From Methanomassiliicoccales archaeon (GTDB taxonomy: Archaea > Thermoplasmatota > Thermoplasmata > RBG-16-68-12 > SOIM01), in assembly GCA_004377185.1 (NCBI GenBank), contig SOIM01000020.1, forward strand, positions 94,931-158,930: a stretch of DNA of 64,000 nucleotides, given 5' to 3'. Position numbers and translations under genes: made by a program. Shown piece after piece: positions 591 through 9,434 of this stretch. Under the pieces are notes generated by a model that was not told the origin of the DNA, did no database searches, and saw only the letters and a list, made by a program, of their open reading frames with translations. Every line of letters starts with the position of its first letter. Positions within the stretch are counted from its first letter, which is position 1.

Positions 591-2013
591 GGGGGACAAG
601 CCTAGGGAGAAGTGTGGCGTGGTAGGGATCGCCACGGACAATGCCTCGCTCGCGCCTTCTTATTTGTATTACAGCCTGAGAGCGCTACAGCACAGAGGCC
701 AGGAATCCGCCGGGATGGCCGTGGAAGGCAAGAAGATTAAGTGTATCAAGGATCTCGGACTGGTATCCGATGTTTTCGATCCCAAGACCATGAAGAAGCT
801 CAAAGGAAAGGCAGGCATAGGGCACGTATACTACTCCCAGAAGCTCTCCAAACCCGAGAACGCACAGCCACACGTCATCAGCACTTCGGTGGGGGAAATC
901 GCGCTTGGTCATAATGGCATAATCGTGAACGCTGAAGAGCTGAAAAGAGGACTCCGGATAAAGGGGCACGTTTTCCTGAAAGGTACCGAGGAGGAGGCGA
1001 TGGCCTACATCATCGCGGATGAGATGCAGCGTTCCAACGACATTCTCAAGGCGATTAAGGTGTTGATGAGGAACATGCTGGGTTCCTATACCTTGACAAT
1101 GTTGTATGAGGGTCGGGTTTTTGGAATCAGGGACCCCTATGGCATAAGGCCACTCTGCGTGGGGAAGATGAAGGATGGTCATGCAGTCGTCTCTGAGAGC
1201 GTCGCCCTGGACGTGCTGGAGGCCGAGCCCCTCGGAGATGTCCAACCCGGTGAGGTCGTTGAACTGACCCCCAACGGGGTGGAATCGCATCAGATGATCA
1301 CAAAGAACCGCAAGGCTCACTGCTTCTTTGAGTACGTATATTTCGCAAGGGCGGACTCGGTCATCGAGGGGAGGAACGTCTACGAGGTGAGGGAAAGGGC
1401 AGGCTCAAGGTGTGCGAAGGAGCACCCAGTGGATGCGGACGTGGTGATCCCAATCCCAGACTCTGGAAGGTCACATGCATATGGTTTCTCACATGAGGCG
1501 GATTTACCGATGATAGAAGGGCTGATGAAGAACAGATACATCGGCAGGACGTTCATAATGCCGGACCAGGAGTCTAGGGACATCAGTGTGAGGGAGAAGG
1601 TCAATCCGATTGTCAACGTCATCAAGGGGAAGAGGGTCGTCCTGGTGGATGACAGCATAGTTCGCGGTACGACCATGACGAGAATCGTGCAGGCCGTCAA
1701 GGGTGCCGGTGCAAAAGAGGTGCACGTGAGGATAGGATCTCCTCCCCTGATAACTCCCTGCTATCTGGGAATAGACATGACAACAAGGGAACGTTTTCTC
1801 GCGAACGCAAAGACGATGGACGATATCAGAGATACTCTGACGGCAGATTCGATAGGATACATAAGCGTGGATGGGGTTGTTGACGCCATCGGTCTTCCAA
1901 AAGGCGACCTCTGCTTAGGGTGCGTCACCGGAAAGTATCCCTTGGACATCCCTTCCGAGATGCATCGATTCCAGAAGCTGATTGATGATTACGAGGAAGA
2001 AGATGAGAGCTAG
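583..2013 (+). CDS. purF: Amidophosphoribosyltransferase paralog 1 with altered glutamine pocket
   Basis: N-terminal Ntn Cys after a short propeptide ([16 protein letters not shown]), PRPP motif [14 protein letters not shown] and Fe-S Cys (HCFFEY, TPCYLG, CLGC). GHVYYS replaces GHVRYS. Confidence 0.9.
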
Positions 2014-3409
2014 AGAGTGTTGCGGGATAGTAGCCATCAATTCCAAGTCCTCTATCGCAAAGAAGATCTTCTTCGGGCTCAAGGTCATACAGCACAGGGG
2101 GCAGGAAGCGGCCGGAATCGCGGTCGCCAAGGATATGAAGATAACATGTGTCAAGTCCTCAGGTCTGGTCCACGAGGTTTTTGATAAGGACACCCTGGAA
2201 AGGCTGGAGGGTAATGTCGGAATAGGTCACGTCAGGTACTCCACCACGGGCGTGAAGACGGCTGATGAAGCGCACCCAATCACTGCCACCACCTCCAATG
2301 GCGACATCGCGATATGTCATAACGGAGAGTTCGTGAACGCGGAGAGGGTAGCACTGGAGAAGAAGCTCTCAGGGTATGAAGGAGAAACGGATACCGAGAT
2401 ACTCGCCAGGATTCTGGTGAAAGAACTGGACACCACGTCAGACCCCACAAGGGCCATATCTCGAACACTGAGCAAGCTGAGAGGGGCATATTCTCTTGCG
2501 ATCTTGGTGGGAGACAGGCTTTTCGCGGCAAGGGATCCACATGGCATACGTCCCCTTTGCTTGGGAAGAATGAAAGAAGGTCATGTGGTCGCATCCGAAA
2601 CGCCGATTCTTGACCTGTTGGAAGCGGAGTTCATCAGGGATCTGAAGCCAGGAGAGATAGTTGAAGTTGGAAATGATCTGGCGAAGTCATTCGAGATGGC
2701 CAGGCCCGAACACACAGGGCATTGCATGTTTGAGTATGTGTATTTCTCAAGACCCGACAATCTCCTGGATGGTAGATTGGTGTATGATGTCCGAAAGCGG
2801 ATAGGACAAATTCTTGCGAGAGAGAATGAGACAAATGCAGATTTGGTGGTCCCGGTTCCGGATTCTGGCAGGGCTCATGCGGCCGGGTTCGCTGATGAGA
2901 GCGGTCTTCCCTTGGTCGAAGGCCTGATAAAGAACAGGTTCGTGGAAAGGACATTCATCCTTCCCGAGCAGAGGGAGAGGGAGATTGGCGTGCTTCTGAA
3001 ATTGAATCCAATCAGATCTCTGGTTGAGGACAAAAAGATCGTACTGGTAGATGACAGCATAATCCGCGGGACGACAATGAAGAAGATCGTAAACATTCTC
3101 AAGAAGGCTGGTACGGGCAAGGTTCACGTGAGGGTGGGTTGTCCTCCGATCAGGCATCCTTGCTATCTGGGCATAGACATGAAGACCAGAGATCAGTTTG
3201 TCGCGAATGATCGGTCCGTTGAGGAGATAAGGGAAGAAATCGGTGCGGATTCTCTCGCCTACGTGAGCTTGGAAGGTTTGGTCGAGGCCATTGATTATCC
3301 GAAAGAGGAATTGTGCTTGGGGTGCTTGACGGGTGAGTATCCCGTTGAGATTGACGGGGAGAAGCTCCGCCGTCGGGAGAGACTGGAAGATTTCACTGAG
3401 AAGGGCTAA
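2003..3409 (+). CDS. purF: Amidophosphoribosyltransferase paralog 2 (canonical)
   Basis: CCGIVAI, GIGHVRYSTTG, HNGEFVNAE, GETDTEILARIL, VLVDDSIIRGTTM and CLGC. The likely start at 2003 overlaps the paralog 1 stop; the track ORF starts at 1982. Confidence 0.92.
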   Translation: MRARECCGIVAINSKSSIAKKIFFGLKVIQHRGQEAAGIAVAKDMKITCVKSSGLVHEVFDKDTLERLEGNVGIGHVRYSTTGVKTADEAHPITATTSNGDIAICHNGEFVNAERVALEKKLSGYEGETDTEILARILVKELDTTSDPTRAISRTLSKLRGAYSLAILVGDRLFAARDPHGIRPLCLGRMKEGHVVASETPILDLLEAEFIRDLKPGEIVEVGNDLAKSFEMARPEHTGHCMFEYVYFSRPDNLLDGRLVYDVRKRIGQILARENETNADLVVPVPDSGRAHAAGFADESGLPLVEGLIKNRFVERTFILPEQREREIGVLLKLNPIRSLVEDKKIVLVDDSIIRGTTMKKIVNILKKAGTGKVHVRVGCPPIRHPCYLGIDMKTRDQFVANDRSVEEIREEIGADSLAYVSLEGLVEAIDYPKEELCLGCLTGEYPVEIDGEKLRRRERLEDFTEKG

Positions 3410-5494: not shown

Positions 5495-5667
5495 GGGGGT
5501 ATGGGGTAACACGGGATCCTCGCGGGCTCCAGTTAAGGGCGTGATTGCCAACGGGTTTGCTGACTGGTGATGACTAACTGGAGCAATGACCCGTAATTCG
5601 AAACATGCGGAGTAGCTCTCCGCGTGGTGGAAACCCGCTGATCTGGGTTCAAATCCCAGTGCCCCCA
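5495..5667 (+). tRNA. tRNA-Trp(CCA) with 100-nt intron (about 5533..5632)
   Basis: Acceptor gggggta/tgccccc. Anticodon stem gcggg (5522-5526)/cccgc (5634-5638) with loop c-t-CCA-g then intron. T arm ctggg-ttcaaat-cccag. Confidence 0.9.
5533..5632 (+). ncRNA. tRNA-Trp intron containing a box C/D 2'-O-methylation guide RNA
   Basis: C'-like gtgatga (5567-5573), D' ctga (5560-5563), C-like gtgattg (5541-5547), D-like atga (5586-5589). Guides cgggttt and taactggagc are complementary to the anticodon-arm exons. Confidence 0.78.
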
Positions 5668-5810
5668 CTCTTTTTTGTTAGATTTTTCCCAACATTCATG
5701 GTTGCGTTGTCCGCCTGTTCGACTAGTTGGAGAGGAGGAGTCTAATGGGAACCTGAGACGCCGACAGATATTTATCCATCGAGCTCGTTTTTAATGTCTG
5801 GTGGCAGGGA

Positions 5811-6194
5811 ATGGATGATTGGGTCAAGGTCCAGCTTTACAAATTATTCCTGATTCTCTTTATGTTATGGATAGGCTTAGATGCCGTATACGGTTATTTT
5901 CTTGGACGATCCCCTCTGGCTTGGGGCGGTTTGACACTTATGTTCGTGGGTTTTGTTATGTTGGCATTTTCCGCGTGGAACATCACACAGTTCAAGTTTC
6001 CTGAGGTGAACCTCAAGATGGGGACCATCTCGGCGACACTATATTCTGCTGGTTTTGTGATGAATCTCGTTAGCAAGGAGTACCAAATGTGGTTCGTTTT
6101 TTCGTTTTCCCTAGTGTTCGTACTATTCGTTGTGGTCCTCATAATATTCTCGTGGAGACGGGAGGCTAAGAGGAAGAGCTACACGGCCCCATAG
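5811..6194 (+). CDS. Small multi-TM membrane protein of unknown function
   Basis: About four hydrophobic segments. TATA-like atatttatcc upstream. Confidence 0.55.
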   Translation: MDDWVKVQLYKLFLILFMLWIGLDAVYGYFLGRSPLAWGGLTLMFVGFVMLAFSAWNITQFKFPEVNLKMGTISATLYSAGFVMNLVSKEYQMWFVFSFSLVFVLFVVVLIIFSWRREAKRKSYTAP

Positions 6195-6348
6195 CCTCAC
6201 GTTGAAGGATGCCTCGAACGTTTTGAATCCAGTATCCCCTGTGGGATATTTTCTTTCGTGCATCTAGTTCCTGATAATCGACTCGGTCGCAGTCTATTCG
6301 ATTAGTTGGAGAGGGAGAGCTATACGGGTCCTTGAGCCTCGAATCCGA

Positions 6349-7104
6349 TTATTCGCGGCGTATAAATTTCTTGAATGGGAACAGAGGAGAGCTCACAGAA
6401 CGTCTTTTCAAAGGTAGGACTGATATGACCCTGAAGGCATTTCTGCGGAGAACCTGGTTCCCCACAAAGAAGTAGATCTGGTGCTTGTCAGAGAAGAGCT
6501 GCAGATTCTTCCAAACCTGGTCTTCCTTACCAGGATTCTTCCTCATCCACTCATAGACCCCCCATTCAAGCAATTGCTGGTTATGACTGCTGTCACATGG
6601 CCCCACACATTTGTATGTTATGCGAGGCTGAAGGATGTAGTCCTTCTTCGTCTTTCGGAGCTTTCGGCCCCAGAGGTCCAGTTGTTCTCCTTTCTGAGGA
6701 TGTTTTCGTTTCCCAAAGTAGTACTTCTCTATCCTCGGTTTGACGATTCCCAGGCTTCTCTTTTGGGCATTAATCTGTCTCACACAACCATCGACTAGCC
6801 CTGTCACGAAGTTCAATCTTTGTTTCGGTTTCAGCTCACCGACGACTTCAATCTTCTCGCTCAGTTTGTACCACTCACTCCTAGATCCTTCTATTTTCCA
6901 GGACTCCTCACGTGTGTCCATTCGGTTTCTCTCAACCGAAACCTTCACGATATTCCACCGTTTCATCGGAGAGTCTGACTTGGTCGGATAGATACGTACA
7001 AATCCGTGTTTCTCAGAGTAACCAGCTGCACAGACAGTTTCTCTGCCGTTATGTATCCTATCAGGACAGGCTCTGCCCAAAACTATCAAGTCATCGATGA
7101 TCAT
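6349..7104 (-). CDS. DuOB-like (dual OB-fold) uncharacterised protein, third gene of the ParB-DUF488 operon
   Basis: MIIDDLIVLGRACPDRIHNGRETVCAAGYSEKHGFVRIYPTK... resembles proteins I recall as encoded next to DUF488 genes. The family name is from memory. Confidence 0.5.
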   Translation of the reverse strand: MIIDDLIVLGRACPDRIHNGRETVCAAGYSEKHGFVRIYPTKSDSPMKRWNIVKVSVERNRMDTREESWKIEGSRSEWYKLSEKIEVVGELKPKQRLNFVTGLVDGCVRQINAQKRSLGIVKPRIEKYYFGKRKHPQKGEQLDLWGRKLRKTKKDYILQPRITYKCVGPCDSSHNQQLLEWGVYEWMRKNPGKEDQVWKNLQLFSDKHQIYFFVGNQVLRRNAFRVISVLPLKRRSVSSPLFPFKKFIRRE

Positions 7105-7146
7105 GTTCCTGATCCCTCTCGCGACTAGAGATCCCTCTACTGAGGA

Positions 7147-8214
7147 TCATAGGTCGATTCTTTTCGGAAACAGTAACGTCTCATTGAACATATTTGCCAG
7201 GATGTGTCTGTGGCAGTGATACTTCTGGTCCTTCCTGGCCTCAGCGTATCGCTCCATGCACATTATTGCTGTCTTTCCGGCATCCTTAACATGATCGATG
7301 ATCTTATCCAGATCCACTTCCTTCTTGATATGCCATCTATACCATTGTTCCAGGCATTTGAAAGACAGATCACCGTCCTTGTAGGGATTCTGAACGACAT
7401 AGGGGATTCCGAGGTCTGGGTGATGTTCATATTTTATGTTGGATTTCTTGAGTTCTCTCGCCAGAAGCTTCCCGCTGAACTCAGGTTTGTACTGGGACTC
7501 GGCTGAGTATCGGGCATCGAGCAAGACTTCGATTTCGTTCTCCTTCAGAACCTTGACAAAGTCATCAATCTCTCTTCCTTGATATCCAATCGTGAATAAG
7601 GTAGTGTTGAAAAATCTCTTCAGCTGGGTCCGGGTCTCATCTCTCGTCCACTCATTCTTCAGAATCAGATCCAGGAACTCTCTCTGTTTATCTTCCCAGT
7701 CATCAAATCTCTTACTGTTGATGGTTGAGATGAGTGTAACATGGTCCGCTGAGACCTTACCTGCGGCAAGTGCGTTCTGGACCTCCTCAACAACTTTCAG
7801 GACAAGACTCAAGCGACTACTTACCCATCTCTGAGACTTGTTGAGTTTCTTTCCCATTTCTTCTTGTGTCAGGTTATACTCCTCAACGATTCTCTTGATC
7901 ACTCGACCCTCCTCCATTTCCGAGAGATTGCTCCTCATCAGATTGGTTTTCAGAGACAGAAAGTCGGCCTCTTCGTCTGATAGATCTCTCACTTCCGCTT
8001 TGATTTCTTTCCAGCCAAGCTTCTTTGCTGCTTCGAGTCTACAATGACCTGCAACTACCTCATACTTCTTTCCATCTTCCTTGGGTCTAACAAGTATGGG
8101 ATTCCACTGGCCATCTGCTCTGAGACTGTCCTTGATTTCCTTGAAATATTCCTTGTCCAGTTCTTCCCGAATCGCGAATCTTCCTGCATCTATTTGGCTG
8201 ATTTTGATTTTCAT
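7147..8214 (-). CDS. Fusion protein: ParB/Srx-like N-domain + HTH + DUF488 C-domain
   Basis: ParB-like IKISQIDAGRFAIREELD...YEVVAGHCRLEAAKKLGW. HTH: LTQEEMGKKLNKSQRWVSSRL. DUF488: LFTIGYQGREIDDFVKVLKENEIEVLLDAR...AIMCMERYAEARKDQKYHCHRHILA. Confidence 0.85.
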   Translation of the reverse strand: MKIKISQIDAGRFAIREELDKEYFKEIKDSLRADGQWNPILVRPKEDGKKYEVVAGHCRLEAAKKLGWKEIKAEVRDLSDEEADFLSLKTNLMRSNLSEMEEGRVIKRIVEEYNLTQEEMGKKLNKSQRWVSSRLSLVLKVVEEVQNALAAGKVSADHVTLISTINSKRFDDWEDKQREFLDLILKNEWTRDETRTQLKRFFNTTLFTIGYQGREIDDFVKVLKENEIEVLLDARYSAESQYKPEFSGKLLARELKKSNIKYEHHPDLGIPYVVQNPYKDGDLSFKCLEQWYRWHIKKEVDLDKIIDHVKDAGKTAIMCMERYAEARKDQKYHCHRHILANMFNETLLFPKRIDL

Positions 8215-8423
8215 TTCCCGAGTCTCCAGATTGTCTGCCCCTTCACAACCTCACGAATTAGTCCGATATCCTCATCCATCCTTCTGACCCACTTGTTATT
8301 GGGCCATTTCTGTGACAATTTCGCATCTTTCCTGACCTGTGTCCAGGTCGTCCCCTCCGGGTAGTTCTTGAGCACCTTCTCCACTGCATCACAAAACGCC
8401 TCGTATGACATTTTTGCTTTCAT
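8211..8423 (-). CDS. Small winged-helix-like DNA-binding protein, first gene of the operon
   Basis: 70 aa; ends IREVVKGQTIWRLGK (wing-like). The stop overlaps the ParB-DUF488 start by 4 nt. Confidence 0.6.
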   Translation of the reverse strand: MKAKMSYEAFCDAVEKVLKNYPEGTTWTQVRKDAKLSQKWPNNKWVRRMDEDIGLIREVVKGQTIWRLGK

Positions 8424-8508
8424 GCTCTGGCCTCCCTCTCAACATTCATGTCAAGACTAGCTGACATTGAATGCCTTTCCTATATTTTTCACTTTTGGCA
8501 TACGCTCC

Positions 8509-8688
8509 TCAGAGTTCCAACTCTAACTCCAGCTTCTCCAGTTTCTTGTCCCTGATCCTTTCCTTCAACGTCTCGTACAGCTCACCCACCTTCTTCTTGC
8601 AAGCGACACAGAGACCGCCATTGTCGGCGAGCTTCTTCATGAAGAGATTCAAGAGACTCTCCGCGCCAGAGATGAATTCCTTCGACAT
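8509..8688 (-). CDS. 59-aa small protein with CxxC
   Basis: Not in the ORF track. MSKEFISGAESLLNLFMKKLADNGGLCVACKKKVGELYETLKERIRDKKLEKLELELEL; high lysine/glutamate content and a single CxxC. Confidence 0.5.
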   Translation of the reverse strand: MSKEFISGAESLLNLFMKKLADNGGLCVACKKKVGELYETLKERIRDKKLEKLELELEL

Positions 8689-8830
8689 CTTGGCTTATAC
8701 CTCCCCCCGCTCAGGTCTCCAGTCTGCTCTTCTGCGAGACAATGCGTCTTGCGGGCGAAAGGGTTATGAGAGCGAACGCATATAAATGTCCATAGGGGAG
8801 GACTGTGAAAGTAATCTGGAGGGTATCATT

Positions 8831-9361
8831 ATGGTGAAGTGCAAGAGCTGTGGTAGGGAGACTCAGGTCGTTTCTAACTTCTGCCCGCACTGCGGTGGCA
8901 AGGTCAGGCTCAAGGCGAGAATCAAGAAGTGGGATCCCACGCCCAGGAAGGCAGCATATCTTGCGAGGAAACTTGCTTCCTTGGATCTGCAGACAAGAGG
9001 AATCACGAAGGAGAAGGATATCGAAATGCAGATGCTCCAGTTGCTGAAGGACTATGAGGGATTCAGGCATCGGTGGGGCGGGAAGAGAGATGTTCGAAGT
9101 GTCGAGGTTCTCGGGTTCAAGCATGGCCCCGACGCCGAGATCCGAGGGATGGCCCTTGAGGTGAAGTACGCGAAACGCCCAGGGGACCTTCAACGAGCCA
9201 TTGGACAGGGGCTACTCTACCAGACCCAGTATCCTTTTGCTATACTGTTCATCGTCGATGGGACTCCTGGGAGGAAAATCAAATCAAGCGTAGGAACGAA
9301 GAATGCCAAACGCCTCGTCCAGAGGCTGAGGGAGATGGGACTATACCTGATCGTGAAGTGA
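8831..9361 (+). CDS. Zinc-ribbon protein with PD-(D/E)XK nuclease-like domain
   Basis: N-terminal CKSCGRETQVVSNFCPHCGGK. C-terminal GPDAEIRGMALEVKYAKRPGDLQRAIGQGLLYQTQYPFAILFIVD (D-ExK-Q pattern). TATA-like catataaat at about 8779 and ggagggt before ATG 8831 support this start. Confidence 0.65.
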   Translation: MVKCKSCGRETQVVSNFCPHCGGKVRLKARIKKWDPTPRKAAYLARKLASLDLQTRGITKEKDIEMQMLQLLKDYEGFRHRWGGKRDVRSVEVLGFKHGPDAEIRGMALEVKYAKRPGDLQRAIGQGLLYQTQYPFAILFIVDGTPGRKIKSSVGTKNAKRLVQRLREMGLYLIVK

Positions 9362-9434
9362 TTTGAATGATCAAGAAATGGAATGAACATCTCAACGCAC
9401 AAATAGTATCTTAACCGTCGGTTATTTCCTTTTC

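Follow-up and report, generated by a model that had tools for sequence, protein, structure and literature searches.

Known roles of ParB clamps are the segregation of chromosomes and plasmids and the regulation of genes. The DUF488 family is said to have been placed by Burroughs and Aravind, in 2023, in the rhodanese-phosphatase superfamily, within the RapZ-C/DUF488/DUF4326 clade, and the DUF488 clade was reportedly predicted to act in DNA-end processing. An archaeal ParB-HTH-DUF488 fusion appears among the CTP-binding proteins in passages of a 2025 PNAS survey of ParB-CTPases (PMC12704722); for the proteins tested there, CTP binding was abolished when the GxxR arginine was changed. A second relevant description is the PADLOC entry PDC-M19, a DUF488 plus dual-OB candidate conflict module. 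A recent article attributes the PDC systems to Payne et al. 2024 (bioRxiv 2024.01.29.577857) and treats them as putative, most of them lacking validation (PMC12988326). In the literature searched we found no report of a functional or antiviral test of the PDC-M19 pair.

We examined a 64,000-nt stretch (the window) of contig SOIM01000020.1 of a Methanomassiliicoccales archaeon (Thermoplasmatota). The original prediction had placed three tight same-strand genes at 6349–8423, and three minus-strand ORFs lie exactly there. By ORF positions the wHTH gene overlaps the fusion gene by 4 nt, and a gap of 42 nt separates the fusion gene from the dual-OB gene; the three form one operon. The features referred to below are:

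8211–8423, minus strand: wHTH-like protein, 70 aa, first gene of the operon (ORF)
7147–8214, minus strand: ParB_N-HTH_ParB-DUF488 fusion, 355 aa (Pfam; PADLOC PDC-M19A on the C-terminal half; AF2)
7939–8211, minus strand: ParB_N domain of the fusion, ParB/Srx, CTP-binding-type (Pfam)
7621–7929, minus strand: HTH_ParB DNA-binding domain of the fusion (Pfam)
7189–7569, minus strand: DUF488 domain of the fusion, alpha/beta, with invariant GY, DxR, CxE and CHR (Pfam, alignment, AF2)
6349–7104, minus strand: dual-OB protein, 251 aa (PADLOC PDC-M19B, phrog_25907, AF2 with Foldseek)
5495–5668, plus strand: pre-tRNA-Trp(CCA) with an intron of ~100 nt, the integration point (ARAGORN, introns allowed)
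5669–9396, no strand: operon-bearing segment of ~3.7 kb, missing from same-family genome G002 (synteny)

PDC-M19A matches fusion residues 169–345 (1.4e-23), and the adjacent gene encodes a PDC-M19B-type protein. We read the operon as an archaeal, ParB-fused version of PDC-M19, carried on a small island at tRNA-Trp and having a mobile conflict role, whether in defence or between elements; our confidence in this reading is middling. Three other explanations are possible, which we rank as toxin-antitoxin, then plasmid maintenance, then repair.

The domains originally predicted for the second protein, ParB/Srx-like, HTH and DUF488, all exceed their Pfam cut-offs (ParB_N 8.5e-18, HTH_ParB 3.4e-12, DUF488 2.9e-14), including the DUF488 segment, for which an HMM check had been proposed; the NCBIfam parB_part domain is likewise over its cut-off. 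The Cys/His motifs that had been picked out in DUF488 are conserved as well: CxE and CHR do not vary when linked DUF488 domains are aligned. The AF2 model of the fusion has a mean pLDDT of 90.7, and its top PDB matches are Noc, ParB and KorB, with sulfiredoxin and SerK also listed; among the 50 matches listed there is no separate match for the DUF488 fold. In the model the DUF488 domain alternates between alpha and beta elements; DxR follows strand 2 and Cys-x-Glu follows strand 4. Profile comparison of DUF488 with archaeal rhodaneses gave a weak match (probability 25.6%, with unrelated controls at 0.8% or below), a suggestive likeness that agrees with the reported placement of DUF488 in the rhodanese-phosphatase superfamily. 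Searches of solved-structure profiles with the DUF488 and dual-OB alignments returned chance-level matches only.

In alignment, the phosphate-binding GxxR arginine is kept in 10 of 10 fusions, while none of the 10 retains the Glu of GERR. The window fusion has A and H, by alignment only, at the positions of Myxococcus ParB Q52 and E93, which we take to be hydrolysis residues (Q52A, CTP-analogue structure 7bnr; E93A, CDP structure 7o0n). Because the GxxR arginine is kept but the Q52 and E93 equivalents are replaced, the fusion may bind nucleotide without canonical turnover. By analogy with its archaeal relative in the survey passages (PMC12704722), the window fusion is probably CTP-dependent.

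The ParA-binding motif (L/F/I)G(K/R)G(L/F/I) is absent from the N-terminus of the fusion, and no ParA-like gene was found among the scanned window neighbours or is annotated near the plasmid copies described below. This bears on the proposal that an orphan ParB maintains its element, whether by partition, copy control or transfer; DUF488 and the dual-OB protein would then be accessory factors in replication, and the chromosomal copy a remnant. The clear ParB_N and HTH_ParB domains, the three plasmid-borne copies and the work of tandem-OB proteins in replication all speak for it. We nevertheless find it improbable, since besides the missing ParA-like gene the catalytic CTPase residues are not kept in the alignment, many copies are chromosomal, and the dual-OB partner also stays with DUF488 proteins that have no ParB part. 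That crenarchaeal and plasmid-borne copies might act for the plasmid itself counts against the conflict reading.

The third protein matches PDC-M19B (6.5e-13) and phrog_25907 (3.6e-39). It had been called DuOB-like, which stands for its fold and not for its family: the protein models as two OB folds, and in Pfam it matches no family and does not reach the DuOB (PF22557) cut-off, although two homologues, from pSOG1 and a Gordonia phage, give sub-threshold DuOB matches (~0.002). The best Foldseek matches of its AlphaFold model (pLDDT 87, pTM 0.85) are telomere end-binding protein alpha, Teb1 and LEF-3 (E 1.6e-3, probability 0.94), all of them tandem-OB ssDNA-binding proteins. On the strength of the model, the dual-OB protein resembles telomere end-binding ssDNA-binding proteins and is likely to bind ssDNA itself.

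Some copies have further small genes alongside. Directly downstream of the module in Heimdallarchaeota, L060:9022–9621 encodes another, short protein that matches the dual-OB profile (2.4e-8). Just downstream of crenarchaeal dual-OB genes is a protein of about 164–173 aa (L062:9664–10185, L063:6262–6783, L037:25173–25679, L036:9908–10399); it appears nuclease-like by eye, has no Pfam match in L062 and L037, the two examined, and is a possible fourth member of the crenarchaeal module.

The surroundings of the operon were compared among related genomes. G002 (locus L118), from the same family, shares the order two PurF, tRNA-Ala, double wHTH, tRNA-Trp, membrane protein, ALDH and CCA enzyme, and is without everything from tRNA-Trp up to window position 9397, where homology resumes; this is an empty site, and the operon lies within the insert of ~3.7 kb at the 3′ end of the tRNA-Trp gene. 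No att-type repeat of at least 12 nt joining the two insert ends was found, and there is no integrase within the window's insert. In the same neighbourhood, G003 has a tyrosine integrase together with a Schlafen AlbA_2 protein, and G004 has one accompanied by an Eco57I-type restriction-modification enzyme and an Mrr-type nuclease. The tRNA-Trp neighbourhood is an accessory hotspot, and the operon is therefore not core.

Several other features of this region were recorded. The integrases of the G003 and G004 neighbourhoods (L117 and L119) sit at tRNA-Ala, with differing cargo. Inside the window's insert, 43-nt direct repeats that are 72% identical (5715–5757 and 6294–6336) flank a small membrane-protein gene at 5811–6194. 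The intron-bearing tRNA-Trp(CCA) is overlooked by a standard ARAGORN run; its intron resembles box C/D RNA sR3 (E 0.0019, below the gathering score). The PurF-like amidophosphoribosyltransferase genes (583–2013 and 1982–3409) are in tandem, as they also are in the same-family genomes G002–G004, and GHVRYST in the second corresponds to GHVYYSQ in the first. Two neighbours were considered as extra module parts and ruled out, both being present in relative G003, which has no operon: ORF 8509–8688 and the Zn-ribbon nuclease-like gene 8786–9361. The C-terminal part of the Zn-ribbon protein is PD-(D/E)xK nuclease-like by eye, and its copies are 87% identical in G003 and 63% identical in G005, both without the operon.

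A scan of 390 genomes of the phylum found the dual-OB gene in 13. A partner adjoins it in 12/12 loci with a readable neighbour, DUF488 in 10 and ParB-ASCH in 2; these 12 include 2 loci with a fragment only of the dual-OB gene and 1 more in which a stop cuts it short. The module is present as a single copy on the chromosome and is decaying in some genomes (L052, L054, L055), and the fusion is absent from the one same-genus and three same-family genomes searched. Plasmid-borne copies, with ParB-HTH-DUF488 beside the dual-OB gene, were found in Haloquadratum walsbyi PL100, Saccharolobus shibatae pBEU9E1 and Sulfolobus islandicus pSOG1; in pSOG2 the dual-OB gene is kept and the fusion is gone. Profile search with the fusion-type DUF488 alignment led to the Bathy-, Loki- and Heimdallarchaeota and crenarchaeal fusion loci, full fusions beside the dual-OB gene being found in Bathyarchaeota, Lokiarchaeota, Heimdallarchaeota, Desulfurococcales, Acidilobaceae and another crenarchaeon. 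In the Gordonia phage Nymphadora, convergent dual-OB and DUF488 genes stand between the immunity repressor and the integrase.

In a maximum-likelihood tree of 27 DUF488 domains, the ParB-fused domains form one group (99/98; all 200 bootstrap trees), which spans Thermoplasmatota, Haloarchaea, Bathyarchaea, Asgard and Crenarchaea and is partly on plasmids. The window domain groups with those of Bathyarchaeota and Lokiarchaeota (100/99) and not with the DUF488s of its own phylum. Since the ParB-fused domains form one group and the window copy falls outside those of its own phylum, the tree fits a single fusion event followed by transfer between archaeal phyla. The mobile, accessory nature of the operon, raised in the original prediction together with the converse that it might be core, is thus evident from its patchy spread, the empty site at a tRNA gene, the plasmid copies and inter-phylum transfer.

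The same distribution weighs against housekeeping repair, in which a ParB-targeted DUF488 would mend damaged DNA ends bound by the dual-OB protein. The resemblance of the dual-OB fold to end-binding proteins would suit such a role, as would the reported prediction of DNA-end processing for the DUF488 clade; with the dual-OB gene in so few of the phylum's genomes, the fusion missing from close relatives, an empty site in G002 and transfer between phyla, we rate repair the least probable of all the readings.

Among 120 loci, a five-sequence wHTH profile matched module loci only: L058, L060, L064, L065, L046, L050 and the window. The wHTH is a separate small gene in the window, where the genome has a single copy, and in L058 and L060, and the Bathyarchaeota and Heimdallarchaeota loci carry it in this form. 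It sits between an AbrB-like part and DUF488 in the fused proteins of L064 and L065 (Woesearchaeota, BMS3Abin17), and lies within the gene immediately upstream of ParB-ASCH and dual-OB in L046 and L050. The wHTH is missing from the Sulfolobus plasmid copies of the module, and the Haloquadratum copy has a different wHTH protein in its place; the view from plasmid copies alone, that the wHTH is not conserved, is overturned by the Bathy, Heimdall, Woese and ParB-ASCH loci. That wHTH and DUF488 are fused in L064/L065 shows directly that the two are functionally linked. The proposal that the joined domains work together is upheld, and the neighbourhood survey agrees with the proposed co-conservation, the wHTH, fusion and dual-OB genes being co-located across archaeal loci. 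The arrangement is far above chance, since Bathyarchaeota, Heimdallarchaeota, Lokiarchaeota, crenarchaea and archaeal plasmids show it again.

The N-terminal modules of DUF488 proteins in the phylum differ, being ParB-HTH, MazE/AbrB-type (a MazE_antitoxin-type domain over the Pfam cut-off in L045 and sub-threshold in L044) or SocA_Panacea-like (sub-threshold segments), and this DNA-binding module is interchangeable. MazE_antitoxin and SocA_Panacea are typical antitoxin domains, and their attachment to DUF488 points to a toxin-antitoxin or addiction system, in which the wHTH, MazE/AbrB, Panacea or ParB-HTH part would repress the operon and restrain a toxic DUF488 or dual-OB protein, stabilising the element. 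The position of the regulator gene in front, the tight overlaps and carriage on plasmids and prophage are in keeping with it. In such a system, however, the regulator would here be covalently joined to the likely enzyme instead of separate, ParB_N would be a nucleotide switch beyond the need of a simple antitoxin, and the single chromosomal copy is decaying in some genomes. We therefore consider toxin-antitoxin unlikely, though it is the foremost of the three alternatives.

Defence genes adjoin several copies: type IIG restriction enzymes in L046 and L065, an AbiE and type I restriction island in L068, and methyltransferase and restriction genes in PL100. A pooled PADLOC scan found many defence families among the module neighbours, and some were found in same-genome control regions too; because the control regions also held defence genes, we claim no defence-island enrichment. 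The nucleic-acid-directed conflict role first proposed for the operon stands as the most likely reading, and is putative.

For the ParB-fused conflict module, the following mechanism can be proposed. The ParB_N-HTH part would bind a DNA site and, when CTP-bound, sit on or slide along the DNA; a role for the fusion as a CTP-dependent loader or sensor, and not as a cycling partition protein, is proposed because the residues normally used for hydrolysis are not retained. The dual-OB protein would hold single-stranded DNA or DNA ends, and the tethered DUF488, as a predicted rhodanese/phosphatase-like cysteine enzyme, would act chemically on the ends or nucleotides of the DNA held in this way, hindering an invading or competing element. 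The wHTH protein would be a DNA-binding subunit, an operon repressor, or both. Both the DUF488 chemistry and the antiviral or inter-element role are presumed from the domains and their company. More tentatively, and in our judgement rather unlikely, the loci could represent a distinct archaeal immune or conflict system of the form wHTH / ParB-clamp-X / dual-OB, in which a CTP-binding clamp brings to invading DNA an exchangeable enzyme, DUF488 or ASCH, that modifies bases or ends. Should the proposed mechanism hold, archaeal mobile elements would direct chemistry to DNA in a novel way, through an enzyme-fused clamp paired with a protein of the ssDNA-binding type. The proposal also gives the PDC-M19 candidate a concrete testable mechanism and a natural test plasmid, pSOG1.

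The operon had been put forward as undescribed, which does not hold: its pair matches PDC-M19A/B and an archaeal ParB-HTH-DUF488 fusion is reported to bind CTP in the survey passages (PMC12704722), so both the pair and the fusion were already present in databases or literature. Our analysis adds the pair adjacency in 12/12 loci, the single ParB-fusion clade across archaeal phyla, the wHTH recurrence and the tRNA-Trp insert. Compared with PDC-M19 in PADLOC, both proteins match and stand side by side in the window, but the window M19A is extended N-terminally by ParB_N-HTH_ParB and follows a separate wHTH gene. The survey fusion has the identical domain combination, while the survey passages on it mention neither a dual-OB partner nor a wHTH gene (PMC12704722). 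Features of the fusion that fit the rhodanese-phosphatase superfamily are the DUF488 Pfam match, the order of strands and helices, DxR after strand 2, Cys after strand 4 and weak rhodanese profile likeness; it differs in its CxE...CHR motif as against the rhodanese CxxGxR loop; within the RapZ-C/DUF488/DUF4326 clade, module relatives give sub-threshold DUF4326 and partly over-threshold DUF488-N3a matches. Canonical ParB, Noc and KorB have ParB_N and HTH in common with the fusion by sequence and fold, whereas the fusion has no ParA neighbour seen, replaced CTPase catalytic residues, and DUF488 where the C-terminal dimerisation domain would stand. The ParB-ASCH/dual-OB loci L046 and L050 have a wHTH-containing gene, a ParB fusion and a dual-OB gene in like order, and differ in that the C-terminal domain is ASCH instead of DUF488.
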